Shown here in pieces: positions 287 through 32,608 of a DNA stretch of 33,354 nt. This DNA is from Clostridiales bacterium (lineage in GTDB: Bacteria; Bacillota; Clostridia; Saccharofermentanales; Saccharofermentanaceae), in assembly GCA_017649645.1 (NCBI GenBank), contig JAGCGK010000200.1, forward strand, positions 1-33,354. Reading direction: 5' to 3'. Within the stretch, counting starts at the first letter, position 1. The number at the start of each line of letters is the position of its first letter. A model generated the notes under the pieces. That model made no database searches. It saw only the letters and a program-made list of their open reading frames with translations, and was not told the DNA's origin. The position numbers and the translations under genes were made by a program.

Positions 287-1276
287 GTGAATAAAGAACA
301 ACTTCACCGCTTTATCAGTGAAAGCACCGAAAACGAGAGCAACATCTGCCAGATCTACGCCATCAAGGACGGAACGGCCGTTTTCGATGACTGCTGGAGA
401 GGATATAAGACAGATGATGCCGTAAACGTCAACTCCGTGACCAAGGGAGTGATGTCGCTTTTGGCAGGAATTTCCATCGATAAGGGCTTCATCAAAGACG
501 TCGATCAGAAAGTAATGGACTTCTTCCCTGACTATCAGGTCAAGCGCGGAGAAAAGACGATATATGACGTAACGATCAGGCATCTTCTCACGATGACGGC
601 ACCATACAAATACCGCTCCGAGCCCTGGACCAAGGTCTGTACATCGGATGACTGGACCTTGGCTGTATTGGACTTTCTGGGCGGACGCAAGGGCATTACC
701 GGAGAGTTTAAGTACGCGACCCTGGGGATCCAGATATTAACGGGCATCATTGAGAACGCCACAGGCGAGAAATGTATCGATTTTGCCAACAAGAATCTGT
801 TCCTGCCACTCGGGATCCCGGAGCACTACATTCATGGCGATAGTTCCAAGGAAGATCAGTTCGATTTCTTCATGAACAAGAATCCGAGAAAGAACGAATG
901 GTACTCAGATCCTAAGGACAGCGTTACCGCAGGCTGGGGACTATGCTCCTCTGCCCGTGATCTCGCGAAGCTCGGGGAACTTGTGGTAAACGACGGAATG
1001 TATAACGGAAAGAGGATCATATCCGGGAAGTACCTTAAGGACATGACAACGCCGCATCTTAAGCTCGGCAGGATGTTCGGTGATATGAACTACGGATATC
1101 TGTGGTATAAGCCGTATGACAATAGAGAAGTCTACGCAGCGATCGGAGACAGCGGCAACATCATCTACGTCAACAAGGAACTGAACGTGTCTGTGGGAAT
1201 GACAGGCACATTTAAGCCGAGGATCTTTGACAGAGTGGAATTCATCGAGAAGAATATTCTTCCGGTATTAAGCTGA
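287..1276 (+). CDS. Serine hydrolase of the beta-lactamase / class C fold (AmpC-like, COG1680)
   Basis: The 329-residue protein has the layout of the class C beta-lactamase / D-alanyl-D-alanine carboxypeptidase / esterase superfamily. The SxxK nucleophile motif is SVTK near residue 51, followed by a hydrophobic helix. HLLTMT lies near residue 99, and a Tyr-containing motif (YATLG) takes the place of YxN near residue 143. No signal peptide is visible, so it is probably cytoplasmic, which argues for an esterase or peptidase rather than a classical secreted beta-lactamase. The start is GTG at 287 with AGGAGG seven bases upstream, inside an inverted repeat. A terminator follows at 1315. The superfamily assignment is firm; the substrate is not known. 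Confidence 0.85.
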   Translation: MNKEQLHRFISESTENESNICQIYAIKDGTAVFDDCWRGYKTDDAVNVNSVTKGVMSLLAGISIDKGFIKDVDQKVMDFFPDYQVKRGEKTIYDVTIRHLLTMTAPYKYRSEPWTKVCTSDDWTLAVLDFLGGRKGITGEFKYATLGIQILTGIIENATGEKCIDFANKNLFLPLGIPEHYIHGDSSKEDQFDFFMNKNPRKNEWYSDPKDSVTAGWGLCSSARDLAKLGELVVNDGMYNGKRIISGKYLKDMTTPHLKLGRMFGDMNYGYLWYKPYDNREVYAAIGDSGNIIYVNKELNVSVGMTGTFKPRIFDRVEFIEKNILPVLS

Positions 1277-1736: not shown

Positions 1737-3050
1737 TTAAAACAAATCATCCAGCAGTATGAAGTAGTTGATCTTTTCCCAATTCGGCTCTATGCCGAGG
1801 GCATCAAAGATCTTATCAGGATCGATGTCCGGATAGACCTTGCCTCCGAATGTGCCGTCAGCATTATGCTTCAGGCTTCGATAGCAAAGTGCGACATCCT
1901 GCCACTTATCACCGACGGCAGTTCCGCCCATATCGATGAATCCACTTATCTTTCCGTCCTCTACAAGGATGTTCGGCAGGCAGAAATCACCGTGCGACAA
2001 CACCGGCTCATATTCCGGCTTATTATCCTCGAGCCACTTCAAAAGCTCCTCAGGATCCTTGAAACCGCCTTCGCAGAAGGTCGTCGGCTCTGCATCATCA
2101 ACATCCACCATGTCGTGCTCAACGCGGTATCTTCCCTCCTTAAGCTGATCGTCGATGTCCCTGGTCTTCGGGCAGTCCGTGATGTCCACGCTCCAGAGCA
2201 TCTTCAATGCATCAGCCAGCAGCTTATAAAGCTCATCCGGATGCTCCATGAAATACTCATCGCAGGTCATCTTTCCCTGAACCCTGCTCATAAGAAGATA
2301 CTGATGATCCTCATCCTTCTCGAAAACGATCACTCTCGGCGCAGGCACTTTACCTTCGAGCCAGCGCATGATCCGGACAGAGGACTCTTCATCATATTTA
2401 TGGGAGTCCATTATCTTAAGGACCATCGTATCAAAGATAAAGATGGAAGAACCCGACTTTCCGAAGCCGTCAACCGTGTATCTCTTACCGCTTATGTGCT
2501 TTCTGATGCTCTCAGGAACAGCGGTAAGAGTCTCATACGGATCATCACGATGAAGCACTGATACATGAGTGATCTTATTCGCCTCATCAGGATATTCTTT
2601 CTCAAAATACATACCTATAGATTCGGCCGTTTTGATCGATCCTTCGTTAGTATATTTGCAGTATGAATAAAGCGCCGGATAATCGGTATTCTGAAACGCC
2701 CAGTCACGAACGGCAGTTGCTGCTTCCTTCGCATAACCCTTGTGCTGCTGACCTTTTCTAATGTGATATCCGATCTCAGGAAGCATCTCGCCTTCGATGT
2801 TCTGCAGCGTCAATCCGCAGTCACCGATCATCTCCCCTGTTTCCTTCAGGCACACAGCCCAAAGACCGAATCCGTTTTCCTTATAACGGTTAATGTTACG
2901 CTCGATCCACTCTCCGACTCTTGCCTTATCAAAGCTGTACGGATAGTGCTGCATGATTTCAGGATCACCCAGGACCTTATAGAGAACTTCAAGATCATCC
3001 ATGCTCATCTCACGGAGTATTAATCTTTTTGTTTCCAATATCTTATTCAT
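1737..3050 (-). CDS. GNAT acetyltransferase fused to an APH(3')-III-like phosphotransferase
   Basis: The 437-residue protein has two domains. Residues 1-165 are a RimJ/RimL-type GNAT acetyltransferase: it opens ETKRLILREM and has the acetyl-CoA loop QQHKGYAKEA near residue 101. Residues 180-437 resemble aminoglycoside O-phosphotransferases of the APH(3')-III type over their whole length. Lys212 in VLKI, His353-Gly-Asp355, Asn360 and Asp373 match the nucleotide Lys, catalytic Asp, Asn and Mg-binding Asp, with spacing of 5 and 18 residues as in APH(3')-IIIa. The C-terminus ILLDDLF also resembles that family. The order is GNAT then kinase, as in AAC(6')-APH(2''), but from other subfamilies. It is the last gene of a five-gene unit. 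The domain calls are strong. Aminoglycoside use is an inference; the natural substrate could be another amino sugar or amine. Confidence 0.88.
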   Translation of the reverse strand: MNKILETKRLILREMSMDDLEVLYKVLGDPEIMQHYPYSFDKARVGEWIERNINRYKENGFGLWAVCLKETGEMIGDCGLTLQNIEGEMLPEIGYHIRKGQQHKGYAKEAATAVRDWAFQNTDYPALYSYCKYTNEGSIKTAESIGMYFEKEYPDEANKITHVSVLHRDDPYETLTAVPESIRKHISGKRYTVDGFGKSGSSIFIFDTMVLKIMDSHKYDEESSVRIMRWLEGKVPAPRVIVFEKDEDHQYLLMSRVQGKMTCDEYFMEHPDELYKLLADALKMLWSVDITDCPKTRDIDDQLKEGRYRVEHDMVDVDDAEPTTFCEGGFKDPEELLKWLEDNKPEYEPVLSHGDFCLPNILVEDGKISGFIDMGGTAVGDKWQDVALCYRSLKHNADGTFGGKVYPDIDPDKIFDALGIEPNWEKINYFILLDDLF

Positions 3051-22937: not shown

Positions 22938-23330
22938 TCATATCTCCCTGAGCACAAACGTGTTGACTGACAGGTCACTGTTCTCGTCAAGACTATATGA
23001 TATCTCGACGCTTCTGGTGAACATGTTGGGCATATTGATGTACATCGTCTTGATGTGCATCTCCATCTCACCGTAGACTGTGACAAAGGATCCGAGAGTC
23101 CTCTCGCCCGGCTTAAAGGTGAGCTTGCTCTTGACATCGCCCGCTCTTATAAGCTCGCAGGACTTTGCCTGAGGATCAACGGTGAGCCTGTACTTGGAAG
23201 GCTTCTCGCCTTTCTCGCGGGACTCCTCCCACTCGTAGGTTACGATGCTTCCGTCGGTGTGCTTTTTGCCCTTACACCTGTAAGGCTCATTATATACGTT
23301 AGTCTCTATCTGAAGATCTATCTCAGTCAT
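22938..23330 (-). CDS. DUF1934 (YwiB-like) beta-barrel protein
   Basis: The 130-residue protein resembles the DUF1934/YwiB calycin-like family. An N-terminal strand IDLQIETNV is followed by paired strands, the conserved CELIRAGDVKSKLTFKPGERT region near 58-77, then GEMEMHIKT and a C-terminal SVEISYSLDEN segment. It should be a small cytoplasmic beta-barrel of unknown role. The start is seven bases after the stop of the MurD-CapA gene with GAGGT just upstream, so it is co-translated with it. Confidence 0.7.
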   Translation of the reverse strand: MTEIDLQIETNVYNEPYRCKGKKHTDGSIVTYEWEESREKGEKPSKYRLTVDPQAKSCELIRAGDVKSKLTFKPGERTLGSFVTVYGEMEMHIKTMYINMPNMFTRSVEISYSLDENSDLSVNTFVLREI

Positions 23331-23336
23331 AATACC

Positions 23337-25682
23337 TCACATCTGTTCCAGGATATAGTCAACGATATCCTTCATCTTGCTTTTTTTCCACTCGCCCTTC
23401 TTCTCTTCCTCGGCCAGAGGACAGAGGATATGGAAATCCAGCGTCTCGCCCGGAACTCTTCCGGTCCTCAAAGGCTCGGCGAAGTGCTCGGCCCACTCTT
23501 CTTCCGTCGCGTCCTTAAAACGCTTCGGGTCAAGATAGGTCATCTGCCTTCTTGTGGCGGCGATATGCATCTTGGTCGACAGCGGCGAAAGCAGCTTGTA
23601 CTCTTCTTCCGGAACATCTTGGAAGATCCTCGGAAGATCGCCGATCTTTATCTTCTCCTCGCCTCTTACGATATCAATGCCGTAAGCTTCAAAGTCGAAC
23701 TTCTCCTTCGTGAGCTTAAGCTTTACCATGATACCCTTCTCGGTATTAAACTGCGATCTTTGATAATCCGTATCGAAAATGAAATTTCCCAACGAATAGA
23801 ATATGATCTTATCTCCGACAGTCTCATAGTTCATAGGAACATGAGGATGGTGGCAGATAACGATGTCTGCGCCCATCTCGAGATACAGATGGAATCTGTC
23901 ACGGGTATAAGGTGACGGGAGCGGTGTGAACTCCTCGCCTGCGTGAGCTACGACGATACACCATCTGCAGGTTGCTTTTATCTCGGAGATCGCGGCTTTT
24001 ATGGCATCCAGGTCGCTCCAGCTGAAGCATCCCGCCTTATCCTTGTCTGCTTTTCTGCAGGCACGCTGATAACCTACGCCGATCATTCCGATGCCGCCTG
24101 CTTCATCGATATAGACTGCCTTACGGGCTTCGTTTATATTGATGCCTGCGCCCAGGGTCTTAACGCCTCTTGCTCTGGCTTCCTTAAGGGTGCTCCTGAT
24201 GCCGGCTTCACCTTCATCCATTATGTGGTTGTTGCAGATATTCCATATGTCGGAACCGATATCTTTAAGAAAATCCGCGACTTCGATATCCATCGAATGT
24301 AAAAGCTGCTTAACGCCTTCAGTAACTTCCTCTTTATCAGATCTCATGATCGGACCTTCAACGTTCGTGATGACGTGATCAGCTGACTTAAGAACGTCCT
24401 TGATGTCGGATGAGAGAAGGTCTTCATCTTTCCATCTGCCGTCCATGTACTTGTCGAATCCGATATCACCCGTAAAGACCAAGGTCTGCTCGGAATCGTT
24501 AAGCACCTGTCTTCTGTAGTAGTCGCCACGCTCCTCGAAGTTCTTAAAGTATCCGTAGGATGCCGCAGCAGGCGAGAAAACACATGCTGTTCCCGAAGGA
24601 GTTATCTTCTTGGCGAGCTCCACTGCTTCCTTAAGATCGTTCCTGTAGGAACAATGCTTAAGATCTTTTACCTCTTCATAGATCCTCTCACCTGTCTTAT
24701 ATGTACAGATGAAGAAAAGATCCGTGCGCTCTTTCATGAACGCGATGAGCTTGTCGTAATTGATTGTACGGTCAAGTCCTCCGACGATGACAGTTTTTGT
24801 ATTCTTGATACTCTCCACTGCCCTTATCGTTGCTTCAGGAATGGTGGATATGGAATCGTTATAGTATGTGACGCCGTTAATGGTGCCAATGTTTTCGAGA
24901 CGATGAGAAAGACCTTGGAACTCACTTATCGATGTTCGTACGTCCCCGTCCTTAAGGCCGAATAGTTCCGTGGCGATCCTATAAACGATGGTCGCATTGA
25001 ACTTGTTATGGTCGCCCTGAAGCTTCATATCGAAGTCCATGGCGTCGGAATAGCTGATATTGATCTTCTTTGCCTTGGTAGGAGTCTCAGGAACGTCGTT
25101 TCCTATAAAGAGGATGTCGTCGGAACTTTGATGCGCAGTGATGTTCTTCTTGGCAGCATAGTATCTGTCCATCGTCTTATAGCGGTCCAGATGATCCTCG
25201 TAAAGGTTCAGGAAAACCGCGATATGAGGAGATGTCTTAAGATCCGACAGCTGATGGCAGCTCATCTCGTAAACTGCGAGCGCGCCTTCGGTCATTTCCT
25301 TATAGTAGTCGAAGCACGGGAAACCGATGTTTCCCACGAGAACTACTTCCCTGTCGAGAGAATCACGGAGCACGCGGTAAAGAAGCGACGAGGTCGTACT
25401 CTTACCTTTTGTTCCGGTAATACCTATTGTCTGAGACGAGAACTGCTCCATGAAAAGCCTCGTCTGTGATGTCATGTTGGGATGATCTAACTCTGTGATG
25501 ATCCCGGGGCTCTTGATGACGAGATCATAGTCGTCGAACCTGACCTCTTCTTCGCTTCCCACAAAGAAATCGTACGTAACGTTCTCGCAGAACTGGTTTA
25601 TGAATCTTTCCGTGGAAAGGCCTTCTCTGCCCTTGCCCCAGATAAGGATCTTCTTGCCGTTTAACTTGTCGGAAATCGCCAT
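23337..25682 (-). CDS. MurD-like Mur ligase fused to a CapA-type (poly-gamma-glutamate capsule) metallophosphoesterase
   Basis: The 781-residue protein holds two full enzymes. Residues 1-395 are a MurD-type ligase: UDP-side motif KGREGLST near 17, P-loop GTKGKSTT (90-97), EDHLDRY (162-168), the carbamylated-Lys candidate Lys178 (YYAAK), GLSHRLE near 257, GGLDR (301-305) and FSPAAASYGYFKNFEERG (369-386). Residues 401-720 are a CapA/PgsA domain (PF09587 type) with Gly405-Asp406, NVEGP (440-444), NNH (484-486), HAGEE (580-584), HHPHV (611-615) and SLGNF (630-634). The usual Lys of NDSKATN is Ile278 (NDSIST), so the amino-acid substrate may differ from D-Glu. It starts one base after the pseudouridine synthase stop and is followed by DUF1934. 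Confidence 0.9.
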   Translation of the reverse strand: MAISDKLNGKKILIWGKGREGLSTERFINQFCENVTYDFFVGSEEEVRFDDYDLVIKSPGIITELDHPNMTSQTRLFMEQFSSQTIGITGTKGKSTTSSLLYRVLRDSLDREVVLVGNIGFPCFDYYKEMTEGALAVYEMSCHQLSDLKTSPHIAVFLNLYEDHLDRYKTMDRYYAAKKNITAHQSSDDILFIGNDVPETPTKAKKINISYSDAMDFDMKLQGDHNKFNATIVYRIATELFGLKDGDVRTSISEFQGLSHRLENIGTINGVTYYNDSISTIPEATIRAVESIKNTKTVIVGGLDRTINYDKLIAFMKERTDLFFICTYKTGERIYEEVKDLKHCSYRNDLKEAVELAKKITPSGTACVFSPAAASYGYFKNFEERGDYYRRQVLNDSEQTLVFTGDIGFDKYMDGRWKDEDLLSSDIKDVLKSADHVITNVEGPIMRSDKEEVTEGVKQLLHSMDIEVADFLKDIGSDIWNICNNHIMDEGEAGIRSTLKEARARGVKTLGAGININEARKAVYIDEAGGIGMIGVGYQRACRKADKDKAGCFSWSDLDAIKAAISEIKATCRWCIVVAHAGEEFTPLPSPYTRDRFHLYLEMGADIVICHHPHVPMNYETVGDKIIFYSLGNFIFDTDYQRSQFNTEKGIMVKLKLTKEKFDFEAYGIDIVRGEEKIKIGDLPRIFQDVPEEEYKLLSPLSTKMHIAATRRQMTYLDPKRFKDATEEEWAEHFAEPLRTGRVPGETLDFHILCPLAEEEKKGEWKKSKMKDIVDYILEQM

Positions 25683-25683
25683 A

Positions 25684-26658
25684 TTAACCTCTGATCTTCA
25701 CGTCATATCTCGGCTCGATCGAGAACTTTCTGCCGGACATGGCAAAATGTCTGTTGCTCTTCGGGATCTTACGAAGTATCAGGGTCGTCGCAAAGAGCTG
25801 CTGATACTTAACCTTGCCGCCCTCACGCGACTTAAAGAAAGTGTTTATCTTATTTCTTCCGTAGTTGCCGTCACCTATGATCGGATATCCCATGTGAGCG
25901 AACTGCGCCCTTATCTGGTGCATCCTTCCTGTAACGAGCTCGACCTCGATATCGGAAACATCCGCACCGTCAGGTCCCACACCCTTATAAACATTTATAA
26001 CTCTGTATCTTGAAGTGACCGGCAGGTCGCCCTTCTGCTCAAGGTCATGGATAAAGACCTGGTTTCCCGCCTTTTCCAGATATGCGCTTACTTCCTTCAT
26101 GATGGCGTCATCCTCGCAGATAACGTTTTCGCCCTCAGTCGGCACGCCCAGCACGAGACATCTGTATCTTTTGATGAGAAGATCGTCCTTAAAGAGCGCG
26201 ATCGCATCTTCCAGCGCATCCTTGTTTTTCGCGAGCATGATAAGACCGCCCGTGTTCATGTCTATCCTGTGACAAAGGTCCATATTAGGGTTATGCGTGT
26301 CTTTTCGAACGATATCGATGAGATTGTCGGTACCGACGCCCTTGCCGCCGTGAACAGGAATACCCTGGCTCTTATTGACGATCAGAAGATCATCCGTCTC
26401 AGCCACGACCTTATACGCATCCTTAGCAGGCTTTTCTTTCTTTTCCGTATTCTCGAAAACACTGTCCGGAAGCCACACTTCCACCGTCTGGCCCAAAGCT
26501 ACCTCCACATCTGAGGAGACCTTCTTGCCGTCCACGCGGATATCTTTATGCTTCAGGGCTTTCTGAAGCTGACCCGCCGTAAGCATCGGGAATTCCATTA
26601 TCGCGGCTCTTACAACATGTTTGCCGGCCTGGTCTTTGTTGACTTCAAAACTTTTCAT
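25684..26658 (-). CDS. RluA-family pseudouridine synthase
   Basis: The 324-residue protein has an N-terminal S4 RNA-binding domain (AGQLQKALKHKDIRVDGKKV near 28-47) and the catalytic pseudouridine synthase domain, with CHRIDMNTGGLIMLAK near 131-146 holding the catalytic Asp of HRxD. The late GRMHQIRAQFAHMGYPIIGD block is typical of RluC/RluD. I chose ATG 26658 with CAGGAG five bases upstream rather than 26688. The target is rRNA or tRNA uridine, not decidable by eye. It opens the operon with the MurD-CapA and DUF1934 genes and is divergent from the cyclophilin gene. Confidence 0.9.
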   Translation of the reverse strand: MKSFEVNKDQAGKHVVRAAIMEFPMLTAGQLQKALKHKDIRVDGKKVSSDVEVALGQTVEVWLPDSVFENTEKKEKPAKDAYKVVAETDDLLIVNKSQGIPVHGGKGVGTDNLIDIVRKDTHNPNMDLCHRIDMNTGGLIMLAKNKDALEDAIALFKDDLLIKRYRCLVLGVPTEGENVICEDDAIMKEVSAYLEKAGNQVFIHDLEQKGDLPVTSRYRVINVYKGVGPDGADVSDIEVELVTGRMHQIRAQFAHMGYPIIGDGNYGRNKINTFFKSREGGKVKYQQLFATTLILRKIPKSNRHFAMSGRKFSIEPRYDVKIRG

Positions 26659-26754
26659 AAATACTCCTGCTCTGAAATGACAGGTCAATATTACACCAAA
26701 ACAAAAAAATCTGCCATAAGACCTAATTGTATATATTTTTTTAGATATTTTTAT

Positions 26755-28436: not shown

Positions 28437-31358
28437 ATGAGACTTCGAAAGTTCTTATGCACTTTTCTGACCGTTGTGCTCATGGTCGCTTCTTTGTCTT
28501 TTGCCGTAGCGGCTGACGAAGAAGGAAAAACATATACCATGCCCGACGGATTGACTTTCACCGTACCGCCTGAATTCGATATGGCCATGTGGGTCGGAAT
28601 GGACGAGGATGATCCTATTTTCGAAGAAGAAGAGATGACCTATACCAACGTTCAGGATACCTATAAATATATGGGTATCGAATTCCAGTCTCCTCTTGGA
28701 ACTATTTCAGGGAACGAAGACCAGGTCTTCATTATTACAGAACTTGAGGTTGCTGCTCCAAACGACACTTCTGCGGAATCTTTTGTTGAAGATCCATGGC
28801 GCGACTACGAACCAACGCAGAACATGAACAGTAGTGAGGTCTACGGTTATGGTCTGGCTGATACGGGTGAACTGCCTGTCTTTAAGCTCGCTTTCAAGCT
28901 TTCAGGAGATGAAACGCTTCAAGGCTACCAGTATTCGCTTTTGACATCTACGGGAAGGATGCACCAGTTCAACATTTTCCTGATAGATTTCTCGTATTCC
29001 GGCGAGACTGTGACTTTTGCAGACGAAGATCTGGAATTCCTCGACTATATAGCTGAGTACATAGAAGGAAGTATCAAATATGACGGAGAGACATTGCCTA
29101 TTGAAGCCGATCCGTTTACAACCGATATAACTCCGGTAGGTTCCTCCGACGGAAGTGGCACGACACAGACGCAGACAACGGATCCTTCCAACTCCACATC
29201 TGCGCCTCGCAAGAGCACTAATTTTTTCAAGAGTTTTACTGAGTTTAATTTCCCTTTGTGGTTACTTGCAGTCATTCTTGTTGCAGTCTTGATCGCAGGC
29301 GCCAAGGTTTCCAAGCGACATGAATGGCAGGAAAAGCCACTGGGTCTTGATACTTCCAAAGCAATACAGGGCTTTGCCGCAGTAGCTATTATCCTTCATC
29401 ACCTGTCTCAGGACCTGCTCGAAAAAGCGGGACCATTTGAGTTCCTGTCAGAATGCGGCGTTATCTTCGTAGGTATATTCTTCTTTTTCTCAGGCTACGG
29501 ACTTTATACCAGCCTTAAGACTAAAAAGGATTACCTCAAAGGTTTTCTTAAAAAGCGACTCATTACGATACTGATTCCTTTCTATTCATGTATCGCTGTA
29601 TTTACCATTGCTTCCTGTATCTGCGGAGCAAAATATACACCTTTGGAACTTCTGGCGATCCTGAGCGGTTTCTATCTCATCAACAGCCATATGTGGTATA
29701 TCGTTGAGATCGCTATCCTCTATCTGGCTTTCTATATCATCTACAAACTCATAAAGAACCGAACGGCAGCAACGATCGTCATGAGCATCTTCGTTCTCGG
29801 AATGATGGCAGGAAGCCTTTATCTGTGCCATGGTGAAGATTTCTCATGCAGCTACTGGTTCATGGGTGAGTGGTGGTTTAACTCCTCTTTCCTCTTTGTA
29901 ATAGGTATCGTTGTCTCCAAGCATTCTGAGGTGATCACAAAGATTGCGCGCAAGGCGTACATCGTTCTCCTACCTGTTTTTGGAGTGCTCACTGTACTCT
30001 TCTACAAGCAGACCATATATGCTCTCCATACATATTCTTACTGGAGTGAGATCCCGGGCGTAGATCCCAGATATGGAGACAAGCTGCGCTGCCTTGTAGT
30101 ACAGCTTCCATTCATTATCTGCTTTGTCATGTTCGTACTCCTTATCATGCTCAAAGTCAGATTTGGTAACCCTGTGCTTAAATTCCTGGGTTCCATATCT
30201 CTGGAACTTTATCTGATACATAACCTCTTCCTTATGGGACTTAAGGACGGTTCTATGTTCAGAGTAGCATCTCCGTCCATGTACATTATCCTTACTATCC
30301 TCATGGCTATCGGTGCAGCTACCATAATCAGCGGAACAGATAAGTATATTATCTCTCTTATTACAGGCAAGCTTAAAGGACAGCAGGATATCAATACATC
30401 CCGTAACCATTCCATAGATGTCATGAGGATAATCATGGCGTTCCTGGTAGTTACCATTCACTGGCCGTTTGACGGTAAAGCAGGAAACGTATTTATCACT
30501 TTCGGTAAGACAGCTGTTCCCTTCTTCCTCGTAGTTTGCGGCTATATGCTCTACAGAGACGACTCTAAGGAGATGATGAAGAGACTCCTCAAACAGACCA
30601 AGAGAATGCTCATCTTCTTTGTCGGTGCAAACCTGTTCTACGGAGTCGTTACAGCCATCGGTGACAAGATAACCATGGGAAGGATCGATATGAGGCCATA
30701 CTTCACATCCAAGAAGATCCTGGACTTCGTTCTTTACAACTTCTCACCGTTCTCTGAACATCTGTGGTTCCTTGGTTCGCTCCTGTATGCTCTCGTCATC
30801 CTTCTTATCCTTAATAAGATAAAGATCTTAAAGCATGCTGTATTTTTAGGTCCGGTACTCATCGCCGCATATGTTATATTGTCACACTTGAATATCGGTG
30901 AACCTTATCAGCTCAGAAATGCTATCCTGGTCGGCCTTTCATATCCGTTAACAGGTATGCTCATAAGAAGGTTCGAAAAAAATATCCTGAACATAAAGTT
31001 CATCTCCATCATACTTCCGGTCCTTGCTGTCATAGCAAGTGTAGCGGCCATTTTCGAGCTGAATACGTATAAAAAGGGCGTGGAAGTGCCATTTGTCGGA
31101 TGTGAGGTGCTTACGATAGTACTCGTGCTTCTTTGCCTGAAGTTCCCTAAGTTCGGTATGGGAACATATGCAGAGAAGATAGGAAAAAGGTCTTCGCTCG
31201 GCATCTACATCATGCACATCTTTACGATGATGATCTTCCTTGTGACCAACAACAGTTCTTTCTTCGGCAAGTACGGAGCCGTTACCATCTTTGTTGTAAC
31301 AGCTGTAGGAGTCGAACTATATGAATGTATCAAGGAAGCAGTGATCAAGACTAGATAA
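28437..31358 (+). CDS. Exported-domain protein with two tandem acyltransferase-3 modules
   Basis: The 973-residue protein has a signal peptide (1-26, ending AVAA), an extracytoplasmic domain of unknown family (27-235), a Ser/Thr-rich linker (235-262), a transmembrane helix (272-290) and then two acyltransferase-3 (OafA/NolL type) domains in sequence. The first runs from about 303 to 640 with His321/His322 in ILHHLS near the start of helix 1. The second runs from about 655 to 970 with His675 in VTIHWPF. Both have many membrane helices. Such proteins transfer acyl groups to surface sugars or peptidoglycan. Motifs SYWFMGEWW and FGNPVLKFLGSISLE in the first copy recur in the neighbour at 31430. 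Start ATG is after AGGAGG. Confidence 0.88.
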   Translation: MRLRKFLCTFLTVVLMVASLSFAVAADEEGKTYTMPDGLTFTVPPEFDMAMWVGMDEDDPIFEEEEMTYTNVQDTYKYMGIEFQSPLGTISGNEDQVFIITELEVAAPNDTSAESFVEDPWRDYEPTQNMNSSEVYGYGLADTGELPVFKLAFKLSGDETLQGYQYSLLTSTGRMHQFNIFLIDFSYSGETVTFADEDLEFLDYIAEYIEGSIKYDGETLPIEADPFTTDITPVGSSDGSGTTQTQTTDPSNSTSAPRKSTNFFKSFTEFNFPLWLLAVILVAVLIAGAKVSKRHEWQEKPLGLDTSKAIQGFAAVAIILHHLSQDLLEKAGPFEFLSECGVIFVGIFFFFSGYGLYTSLKTKKDYLKGFLKKRLITILIPFYSCIAVFTIASCICGAKYTPLELLAILSGFYLINSHMWYIVEIAILYLAFYIIYKLIKNRTAATIVMSIFVLGMMAGSLYLCHGEDFSCSYWFMGEWWFNSSFLFVIGIVVSKHSEVITKIARKAYIVLLPVFGVLTVLFYKQTIYALHTYSYWSEIPGVDPRYGDKLRCLVVQLPFIICFVMFVLLIMLKVRFGNPVLKFLGSISLELYLIHNLFLMGLKDGSMFRVASPSMYIILTILMAIGAATIISGTDKYIISLITGKLKGQQDINTSRNHSIDVMRIIMAFLVVTIHWPFDGKAGNVFITFGKTAVPFFLVVCGYMLYRDDSKEMMKRLLKQTKRMLIFFVGANLFYGVVTAIGDKITMGRIDMRPYFTSKKILDFVLYNFSPFSEHLWFLGSLLYALVILLILNKIKILKHAVFLGPVLIAAYVILSHLNIGEPYQLRNAILVGLSYPLTGMLIRRFEKNILNIKFISIILPVLAVIASVAAIFELNTYKKGVEVPFVGCEVLTIVLVLLCLKFPKFGMGTYAEKIGKRSSLGIYIMHIFTMMIFLVTNNSSFFGKYGAVTIFVVTAVGVELYECIKEAVIKTR

Positions 31359-31429: not shown

Positions 31430-32608
31430 TCAGTTTACCTTGCCGTCGAACAATCTTGTTCTTCTCTCAAGTACGATGTTCTTTATGTAGTAGACTATTA
31501 CTGAACTTACTACTGTTCCCGCAAATACCGCTATCAGATATACGTAGATCCCGTATCGTGAATAGAGGAAATACAGTTTTGAGCAGAACAGATAATTGAG
31601 CATTATCATCTCTAGAGATATCTTCCCTAACAGTTTAAGGATTGGATTTCCGAACTTAACACGTGACATGATCGTCAATACAAGTACAAGGAATATGATC
31701 TCGAATATTGTCTCCACACTTAAGCCTTGAAGCTTATCCAAAAGCGGATGCGGTGAATCGAATGTCTCCGTCCAGTAGATGGATCTTTCTATAAGACCAC
31801 GATGGATAAAGTCAACAAGTACAAACAGTATTGCTGACGCGATCAAAAGCGGCACAAAAGCTGTCTTGAAGATCTTATTGAGACGCTTCTCCTTATAGGC
31901 ATAGAGCATGCCGAGAGGGAACATAAGTATCGTGTTATACCACCACTCTCCCATGAACCAGTATGACATAACAGCTGAATTAGAGTGACCCAATAACAAT
32001 CCGATGATGACCATGACAATAACAGCAGCAGTCATGATAATAATTCCGTGTAGCGGCTTTTTTATCTTCGCGAAAACGATCCTGAATATCAGATAAAGGA
32101 TCATGATCTCAACCGCAAACCACATCTGATTATTTATAAGGAATACTCCGAAAAAGCTGCAGACTACTTCAATAGGATGAAAGTGACCGCCTGATCTGAT
32201 ATTGTGCAAAAGTGCATCGGTAAGATAGATATAGTTACAGATAAAGAACGGGACAAGTACCGTAAATATCCTTCTTCTCATGAAACCCTTAATATAAGTG
32301 TCATCCGTCATCCATCTCTTTAAAAGTCCGAAACCGGAGCTGAAGAAGAAAAATGCTACTGCAAGGATTCCGTAATAGTAGTAGTTAAAGAACGGGAGCA
32401 TTTCATCTCTCAGATCTCCTGAGTAAAAATGATCAAACGTAATGACTGTCTGATGGAAAATAATGAAGACAGCCAAAAAACCCTGGAATTCCTTACTCAG
32501 AACTCTGTCGAAAAATGACTCTTCGTTAAAGGACCTGCGAGATACATTAACAAGCAGGATAAGCAACAATATAGCTAAACTGATATAAAAGACTATCGTA
32601 AACTCCAC
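31430..32608 (-). CDS. Acyltransferase-3 family membrane protein, paralog of the first module of the tandem protein
   Basis: The 392-residue integral membrane protein has a hydrophobic N-terminus and the acyltransferase-3 domain with His52 (IIFHQ) at the usual place. It shares with the 28437 gene the segments INNQMWFAVEIMILYL (there INSHMWYIVEIAILYL), SYWFMGEWWYN and VKFGNPILKLLGKISLE, so the two are close paralogs. The start is GTG at 32608 with AAGGAG eight bases upstream. It lies 12 bases after the XRE-membrane regulator, so both are on one transcript. The substrate is probably a cell-surface glycan. Confidence 0.87.
   Translation of the reverse strand: MEFTIVFYISLAILLLILLVNVSRRSFNEESFFDRVLSKEFQGFLAVFIIFHQTVITFDHFYSGDLRDEMLPFFNYYYYGILAVAFFFFSSGFGLLKRWMTDDTYIKGFMRRRIFTVLVPFFICNYIYLTDALLHNIRSGGHFHPIEVVCSFFGVFLINNQMWFAVEIMILYLIFRIVFAKIKKPLHGIIIMTAAVIVMVIIGLLLGHSNSAVMSYWFMGEWWYNTILMFPLGMLYAYKEKRLNKIFKTAFVPLLIASAILFVLVDFIHRGLIERSIYWTETFDSPHPLLDKLQGLSVETIFEIIFLVLVLTIMSRVKFGNPILKLLGKISLEMIMLNYLFCSKLYFLYSRYGIYVYLIAVFAGTVVSSVIVYYIKNIVLERRTRLFDGKVN

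Follow-up and report, generated by a model that had tools for sequence, protein, structure and literature searches.

A MurD-CapA fusion in Clostridia lacking a recognizable glutamate racemase: a candidate ligase-epimerase for D-glutamate in peptidoglycan

The stretch of DNA analyzed here (hereafter the window) is a contig of 33,354 nucleotides, JAGCGK010000200.1, from the Clostridiales assembly GCA_017649645.1 (hereafter G000). It contains a gene whose 781-residue product joins a MurD-type ligase to a CapA-type domain. As had been proposed in a preliminary description of the window, the gene is a single open frame, starting with an ATG at position 25682 and ending with a stop codon at 23337–23339. 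Both parts of the product are matched by profiles: the murD equivalog TIGR01087 covers residues 28–393 (260.7 bits vs. a cut-off of 211.95), with Mur_ligase_M at residues 88–218 and Mur_ligase_C at residues 260–371, and PF09587 (PGA_cap) covers residues 400–637 (169 bits vs. a gathering cut-off of 27). The Mur ligase and CapA motifs named earlier are readable in the translation (Table 1). We consider it likely that the fusion installs D-glutamate (D-Glu) in peptidoglycan without free D-Glu, the MurD and CapA pair replacing both murD and the glutamate racemase gene murI.

Table 1. The murD-capA fusion gene, its parts, and the adjoining genes (window positions)
Feature	Positions	Strand	Details
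murD-capA fusion gene, 781 aa	23337..25682	(-)	Uninterrupted open frame; TIGR01087 and PF09587 over cut-off
MurD half, residues 1-395	24498..25682	(-)	P-loop GTKGKSTT 90-97, EDH 162-164, GGLDR 301-305, SPAAAS 370-375
MurD half, specificity positions			D163 (= E. coli 182), R305 (= E. coli 348)
CapA half, residues 396-781	23340..24497	(-)	Putative epimerase; D406, E442, N485, H486, D489, H580, H614
CapA half, cysteines C542 and C552	23340..24497	(-)	Invariant across subfamily
RluA-type pseudouridine synthase	25684..26688	(-)	One base upstream of fusion
DUF1934 gene	22938..23330	(-)	Six bases downstream of fusion

No second murD over the cut-off was found in G000, an assembly of 201 contigs with 90.39% completeness and 6.33% estimated contamination. 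It has five Mur_ligase_M matches, namely the fusion, MurC, MurE, MurF, and MurT, of which MurC (325.2 bits vs. a cut-off of 335.1) and MurT (283.4 vs. 800) are named by best match. Since the other four are MurC, MurE, MurF, and MurT, the fusion occupies the MurD slot, and the earlier question of whether the fused gene replaces a separate canonical murD can be answered in the affirmative for this assembly. The fusion seems to replace murI as well, a point absent from the preliminary description. MurT with a GatD-like neighbor is expected where the wall has D-Glu to amidate; the murT of G000 adjoins a GATase_3 gene, GatD-like by position. In the division and cell wall (dcw) stretch of G000 (locus L194, contig C142; gene names assigned by eye, except murE and murF), neither murD nor mraY lies between murF and an ftsW-like gene. 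The murD of the MurI-bearing genus-mate G005 is likewise situated outside the dcw cluster (names by eye), and the dcw position is uninformative.

A profile built from five CapA halves (A1) was scanned against GTDB genome contigs, and the best 80 of 267 relatives were fetched. The domain pair, which had been suggested for a search in other Clostridia, does recur there: nine of the 80 loci, all from assemblies other than G000, have the two domains joined within a single frame of 786–833 residues. At five loci murD is directly upstream, ending at most 120 bases from the capA match, and at one (L127) it is nearby on the opposite strand. The remaining 65 loci yielded no MurD, capA being near the locus end in five of these. 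All 80 loci were assigned to Clostridia or groups within, many of them in metagenome-assembled genomes from gut or rumen. Among 72,556 plasmid records, there was none in which a single place spanned 80% of the query. The ten CapA halves that are fused to MurD group in a single clade (97/88), which fits one fusion event; the five murD-adjacent halves do not group in this way. An artefact of assembly or binning that joined two genes, raised earlier as a possible refutation of the frame, is extremely improbable. The fragmentation and estimated contamination of G000 would permit it, but the nine other assemblies fused in one frame, on account of which this explanation was rejected, and the common clade of the fused halves argue against it.

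A CapA half that provides the D configuration ought to make murI unnecessary. MurI was scored by TIGR00067 (cut-off 146.65 bits), and the presence of the CapA subfamily among 99 relatives by a CapA-half match of more than 700 bits. MurI over the cut-off was found in none of the five subfamily genomes vs. 76 of the 94 others (Fisher p = 4.7e-4). It was also found in none of 50 fetched subfamily genomes, comprising 15 with capA fused, adjacent, or near to murD and 35 with a standalone copy, the latter chosen mainly for longer contigs. Four of the 50 share contig coordinates with G009, G013, G021, and G038 and were taken as the same assemblies; together with G000, the distinct subfamily genomes number 51. 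In a class sample of 391 genomes, where G000 is the sole strong subfamily match, MurI is over the cut-off in 328 and has a match at E<=1e-20 in 344; a Fisher test on this class-sample contrast ignores kinship and is not to be taken literally, the within-genus contrast being the better one. Weaker CapA matches in the class sample (G243, 225 bits; G430, 145.5 bits) come from genomes with MurI, as does that of the relative G071 (91.7 bits to the CapA half). The presence of MurI in G243 and G430 indicates that the missing-MurI link is confined to the close subfamily and does not extend to CapA proteins in general.

D-amino-acid transaminase over the cut-off was found in none of the 62 genomes searched, 51 being the distinct subfamily genomes, and weak matches occur in 28 of the 62. 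No match to MurL (NF041275) was found in any of the 51 subfamily genomes, and the fusion itself is not matched; a MurL-type epimerase was therefore rejected for the CapA half. It is quite unlikely that a racemase, promiscuous or undetected, is the source of D-Glu, with the CapA half hydrolyzing or editing the ligase product. Such a source would be in line with racemase-like matches below the cut-off in some of these genomes (see below) and with the observation that the aspartate racemase RacD, when overexpressed, can supply D-Glu in Vibrio fischeri (PMC12502697). However, 38 of the 50 genomes have no Asp/Glu-racemase-like match at E<=1e-5, and both the link between MurI absence and the subfamily and the shift in MurD residues would be left unexplained.

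MurI over the cut-off is missing from 23 relatives, of which five have the CapA subfamily and 12 match MurL; the remaining six, without the CapA subfamily, have no route assigned. The 12 MurL-matching relatives are 11 members of family f4 plus G096, none of them at the 700-bit cut-off of the Xanthomonas model. In six f4 genomes, where MurI is not over the cut-off (G061, G070, G079, G082, G085, and G094; loci L054–L059), MurL and MurD are fused in one frame of 1019–1070 residues with MurL at the N-terminus (two of the six were scanned in full). The CapA fusion therefore has a parallel within the same order, i.e., a ligase fused to a known epimerase type. The two kinds of single chain share the absence of MurI over the cut-off and differ in the placement of the epimerase and in its sequence family, MurL being unrelated to CapA. 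In the available portion of PMC8788868, the MurL pathway is listed for Gammaproteobacteria, Alphaproteobacteria, and actinobacteria, i.e., outside Clostridia.

The type of glutamate used by the MurD half can be approached through its specificity residues. MurD2 of Xanthomonas uses L-Glu, its stereospecificity being set by Glu197 and Arg358 (E. coli Asp182 and Lys348), and the E197D replacement altered this stereospecificity (PMC8788868). Arg at the E. coli 348 position is not diagnostic alone, as an ordinary Streptococcus MurD has Arg too (PMC8788868). In our alignment, Arg occupies this position in the MurDs of each of the 51 subfamily genomes, combined with Glu at E. coli position 182 (E/R) in 32 genomes and with Asp (D/R) in 19, including the window. 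The MurDs of the MurI-type relatives have Asn and Lys (N/K) in 29 of 29 cases, with MurI over the cut-off in 27 of these genomes (exceptions, G060 and G003), and E/R is found in the MurL-linked MurDs of all 12 genomes that have them. At L145–L148 (G112, G111, G107, and G143, respectively), the CapA subfamily is accompanied by two kinds of MurD, D/R and N/K. A MurD tree of 86 rows, for which a long-branch warning applies, E. coli included, and outside which Xanthomonas MurD2 itself remains, contains a 100/99 branch with 11 MurL-linked and 41 CapA-linked MurDs on one side and E. coli MurD, 29 MurI-type MurDs, and four N/K MurDs on the other. Together, the clade and the residues speak for L-Glu ligation with subsequent peptide epimerization rather than for a racemase of free glutamate feeding an ordinary MurD.

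This latter arrangement, in which the CapA half would be a new MurI substitute and the MurD half a D-Glu ligase, would account for the missing MurI just as well. In its favor, the window and 18 other subfamily genomes have Asp at E. coli position 182, and four genomes keep an N/K MurD. MurI uses two-cysteine chemistry, and the CapA half has two cysteines resembling it, C542 and C552, which all 81 subfamily rows share and both CapA controls (L180 and L181) lack. We nevertheless regard a free-glutamate racemase as unlikely, because Arg348 throughout the subfamily, joined in 32 of the 51 genomes by Glu182, is the MurD2 pattern, the subfamily MurDs fall with the MurL-linked ones, and known CapA-fold epimerases work on peptide-bound residues.

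Among PDB sequences, the CapA-half profile retrieved at E<=0.01 three distinct sequences, all of them MslH entries. MslH, a protein of the same PGA_cap/CapA-type family, epimerizes a C-terminal residue, the Trp of a lasso peptide (PMC10406935). The chemistry of MslH relies on the dyads His88/Asp91 and His295/Asp11 and on the ligands Glu44, Asn87, His259, and His261. Six of these eight residues align with the same residue in the CapA half: Glu44, Asn87, His88, Asp91, His259, and His295 correspond to E442, N485, H486, D489, H580, and H614. MslH Asp11 is outside the alignment and was paired with D406 by motif only. The seven MslH-like residues of the window are identical in 81 of 81 subfamily rows. 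MslH differs in its substrate and in having no ligase fused, and on the MslH equivalog NF038314 the CapA half scores 64.3 bits vs. a cut-off of 700.

The PgsA/CapA proteins of poly-gamma-glutamate synthesis belong to the same Pfam family and likewise affect the D/L ratio of Glu. PgsA has been cited as an L-to-D Glu epimerase with reference to an Org. Lett. 2019 paper (PMC7168211), and the B. subtilis polymer had a D/L ratio of 5/95 without pgsA vs. 75/25 with it, an effect that the authors suggested to reflect interaction with a racemase or a conformational effect (PMC6029982). The preliminary description had called the CapA half a phosphoesterase and supposed that the two halves act on the same glutamate-containing intermediate or trim a ligase product. 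The shared intermediate is supported by our results; trimming is not, and a phosphoesterase that trims is probably wrong in kind, given the MslH-only PDB relatives, the PgsA/CapA effect on Glu stereochemistry, and the tracking of MurI absence by the subfamily.

No membrane-like stretch was found in the CapA half, and of 71 non-fused copies, 67 have their nearest Met eight residues ahead of FTGD; both observations fit a cytoplasmic enzyme with a cytoplasmic substrate. The start of the other CapA of G000 (L002) resembles, by eye, a lipoprotein signal. The name of the CapA domain, and the fact that PgsB/CapB is likewise a Mur-type ligase (PMC11915815), could suggest that the fusion makes capsule (poly-gamma-glutamate), its MurD half taking the place of PgsB. 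This is highly improbable, as the fusion is the sole murD over the cut-off in G000, matches the murD equivalog, and is free of a membrane-like stretch; in this last respect, and in being tied to a peptidoglycan ligase, it differs from PgsA/CapA. A capsule-type CapA would be a membrane-anchored partner of PgsB and PgsC. The capsule synthase was rejected for want of a membrane-like stretch and because none of the five Mur_ligase_M matches is a PgsB-like extra ligase; no search for PgsC was made.

Under the reading that we prefer, a ligase followed by a peptide epimerase, the MurD half would attach L-Glu to the cell-wall precursor UDP-N-acetylmuramoyl-L-alanine (UDP-MurNAc-L-Ala). The CapA half, a cytoplasmic and probably metal-dependent epimerase of calcineurin fold, would then invert the terminal Glu at its alpha-carbon, converting the L to the D form. 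The inversion would proceed by two-base proton transfer, one proton being removed from this Glu and another delivered from the opposite side; H486/D489 and H614/D406 are the likely acid/base dyads, as in MslH. The alpha-carboxylate of the terminal Glu would be free, like that of the C-terminal Trp in the MslH substrate. MurE may draw the D product onward, and the fusion may keep the wrong epimer local.

The closest precedent for such chemistry is MurD2 plus MurL of Xanthomonas oryzae (XOO_1320 and XOO_1319), where L-Glu is ligated to UDP-MurNAc-L-Ala and the terminal Glu is then epimerized. The fusion shares with it the absence of MurI over the cut-off, the MurL-linked MurD clade, and the specificity Arg; it would work like this pair, yet is not a member of MurL. 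Its epimerase would be of the CapA/calcineurin fold, sits behind the ligase in one chain, and is accompanied in the window by Asp in place of Glu. From the standard combination of MurI with ordinary MurD, the fusion is set apart by the absence of MurI over the cut-off in all 51 subfamily genomes and by the clade and residues of its MurD. Both the MurD2/MurL chemistry and CapA-fold epimerization are already known; no description of the two combined in the making of peptidoglycan was found. Neither a MurD-CapA fusion nor a CapA epimerase acting in peptidoglycan was recognizable among the matches listed in the open-licence PMC literature, and the available part of PMC5808125 does not mention CapA.

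Several observations weigh against this reading. The MurD half of the window has Asp, the E. coli state, where Xanthomonas MurD2 has Glu197, and, as E197D alters MurD2 stereospecificity, the D/R enzymes might accept D-Glu. In four of the 50 genomes (G107, G111, G112, and G143), MurI was not found over the cut-off and an extra N/K MurD is present. Asp/Glu-racemase-like matches below the cut-off occur in 12 of the 50 genomes and in G000, where the best MurI match, 30.8 bits, is far under the cut-off; for the transaminase, G136 comes nearest to the 277.45-bit cut-off with 228.4 bits. MslH His261 aligns with a glycine, G582. Both CapA controls, one of which (L181) comes from a MurI-bearing genome, retain the seven MslH-like residues as well; being common to the controls, these residues allow epimerization and do not prove it. 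No D-Glu route was found in six MurI-less relatives, whose completeness is 70% (G003), 95% (G015), 81% (G026), 78% (G052), 96% (G060), and 84% (G088), the overall range being given as 64–96%; MurL was absent from the four of them that were searched (G015, G026, G060, and G088). Finally, G000 is incomplete and partly contaminated, many other genomes are metagenome-assembled, and the 50 subfamily genomes are mutually related and partly hand-picked.

Glutamate racemase is usually considered an essential enzyme and a drug target. If our reading is true, some gut Clostridia bypass it by means of enzymes annotated as capsule synthesis, which would explain life without MurI in these bacteria, and MurI inhibitors would be expected to be inactive on such species. 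A branch of the CapA family genes would gain a testable essential role, and a family so far associated with poly-gamma-glutamate and lasso peptides would include members on which growth depends. It would also follow that an unrelated epimerase can fill the known MurL step and that ligase-epimerase fusions arose separately for each epimerase type.

The RluA-type and DUF1934 genes are probably on the transcript of the fusion and are not regarded as part of its function. Co-translation of the three genes, as envisaged in the preliminary description, is compatible with the spacing, the fusion ATG being separated by 1 base from the RluA-type stop and the DUF1934 start by 6 bases from the fusion stop. 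The RluA neighborhood is also present at loci L063 and L064 and was not seen at the other fused loci examined (L065, L066, L067, L102, L122, and L140). GC content is uninformative (fusion, 0.480; RluA, 0.492; Der, 0.487; TypA, 0.482; whole window, 0.443). Elsewhere in the window, a 437-residue protein (1737–3050, minus strand) combines an N-terminal GNAT acetyltransferase (PF13302) with a C-terminal APH phosphotransferase (PF01636), and a 329-residue protein (287–1276, plus strand) belongs to the serine beta-lactamase/DD-peptidase family (PF00144, 72.6 bits). A 973-residue protein with two Acyl_transf_3 stretches (28437–31358, plus strand) adjoins a third Acyl_transf_3 gene (31430–32608, minus strand).
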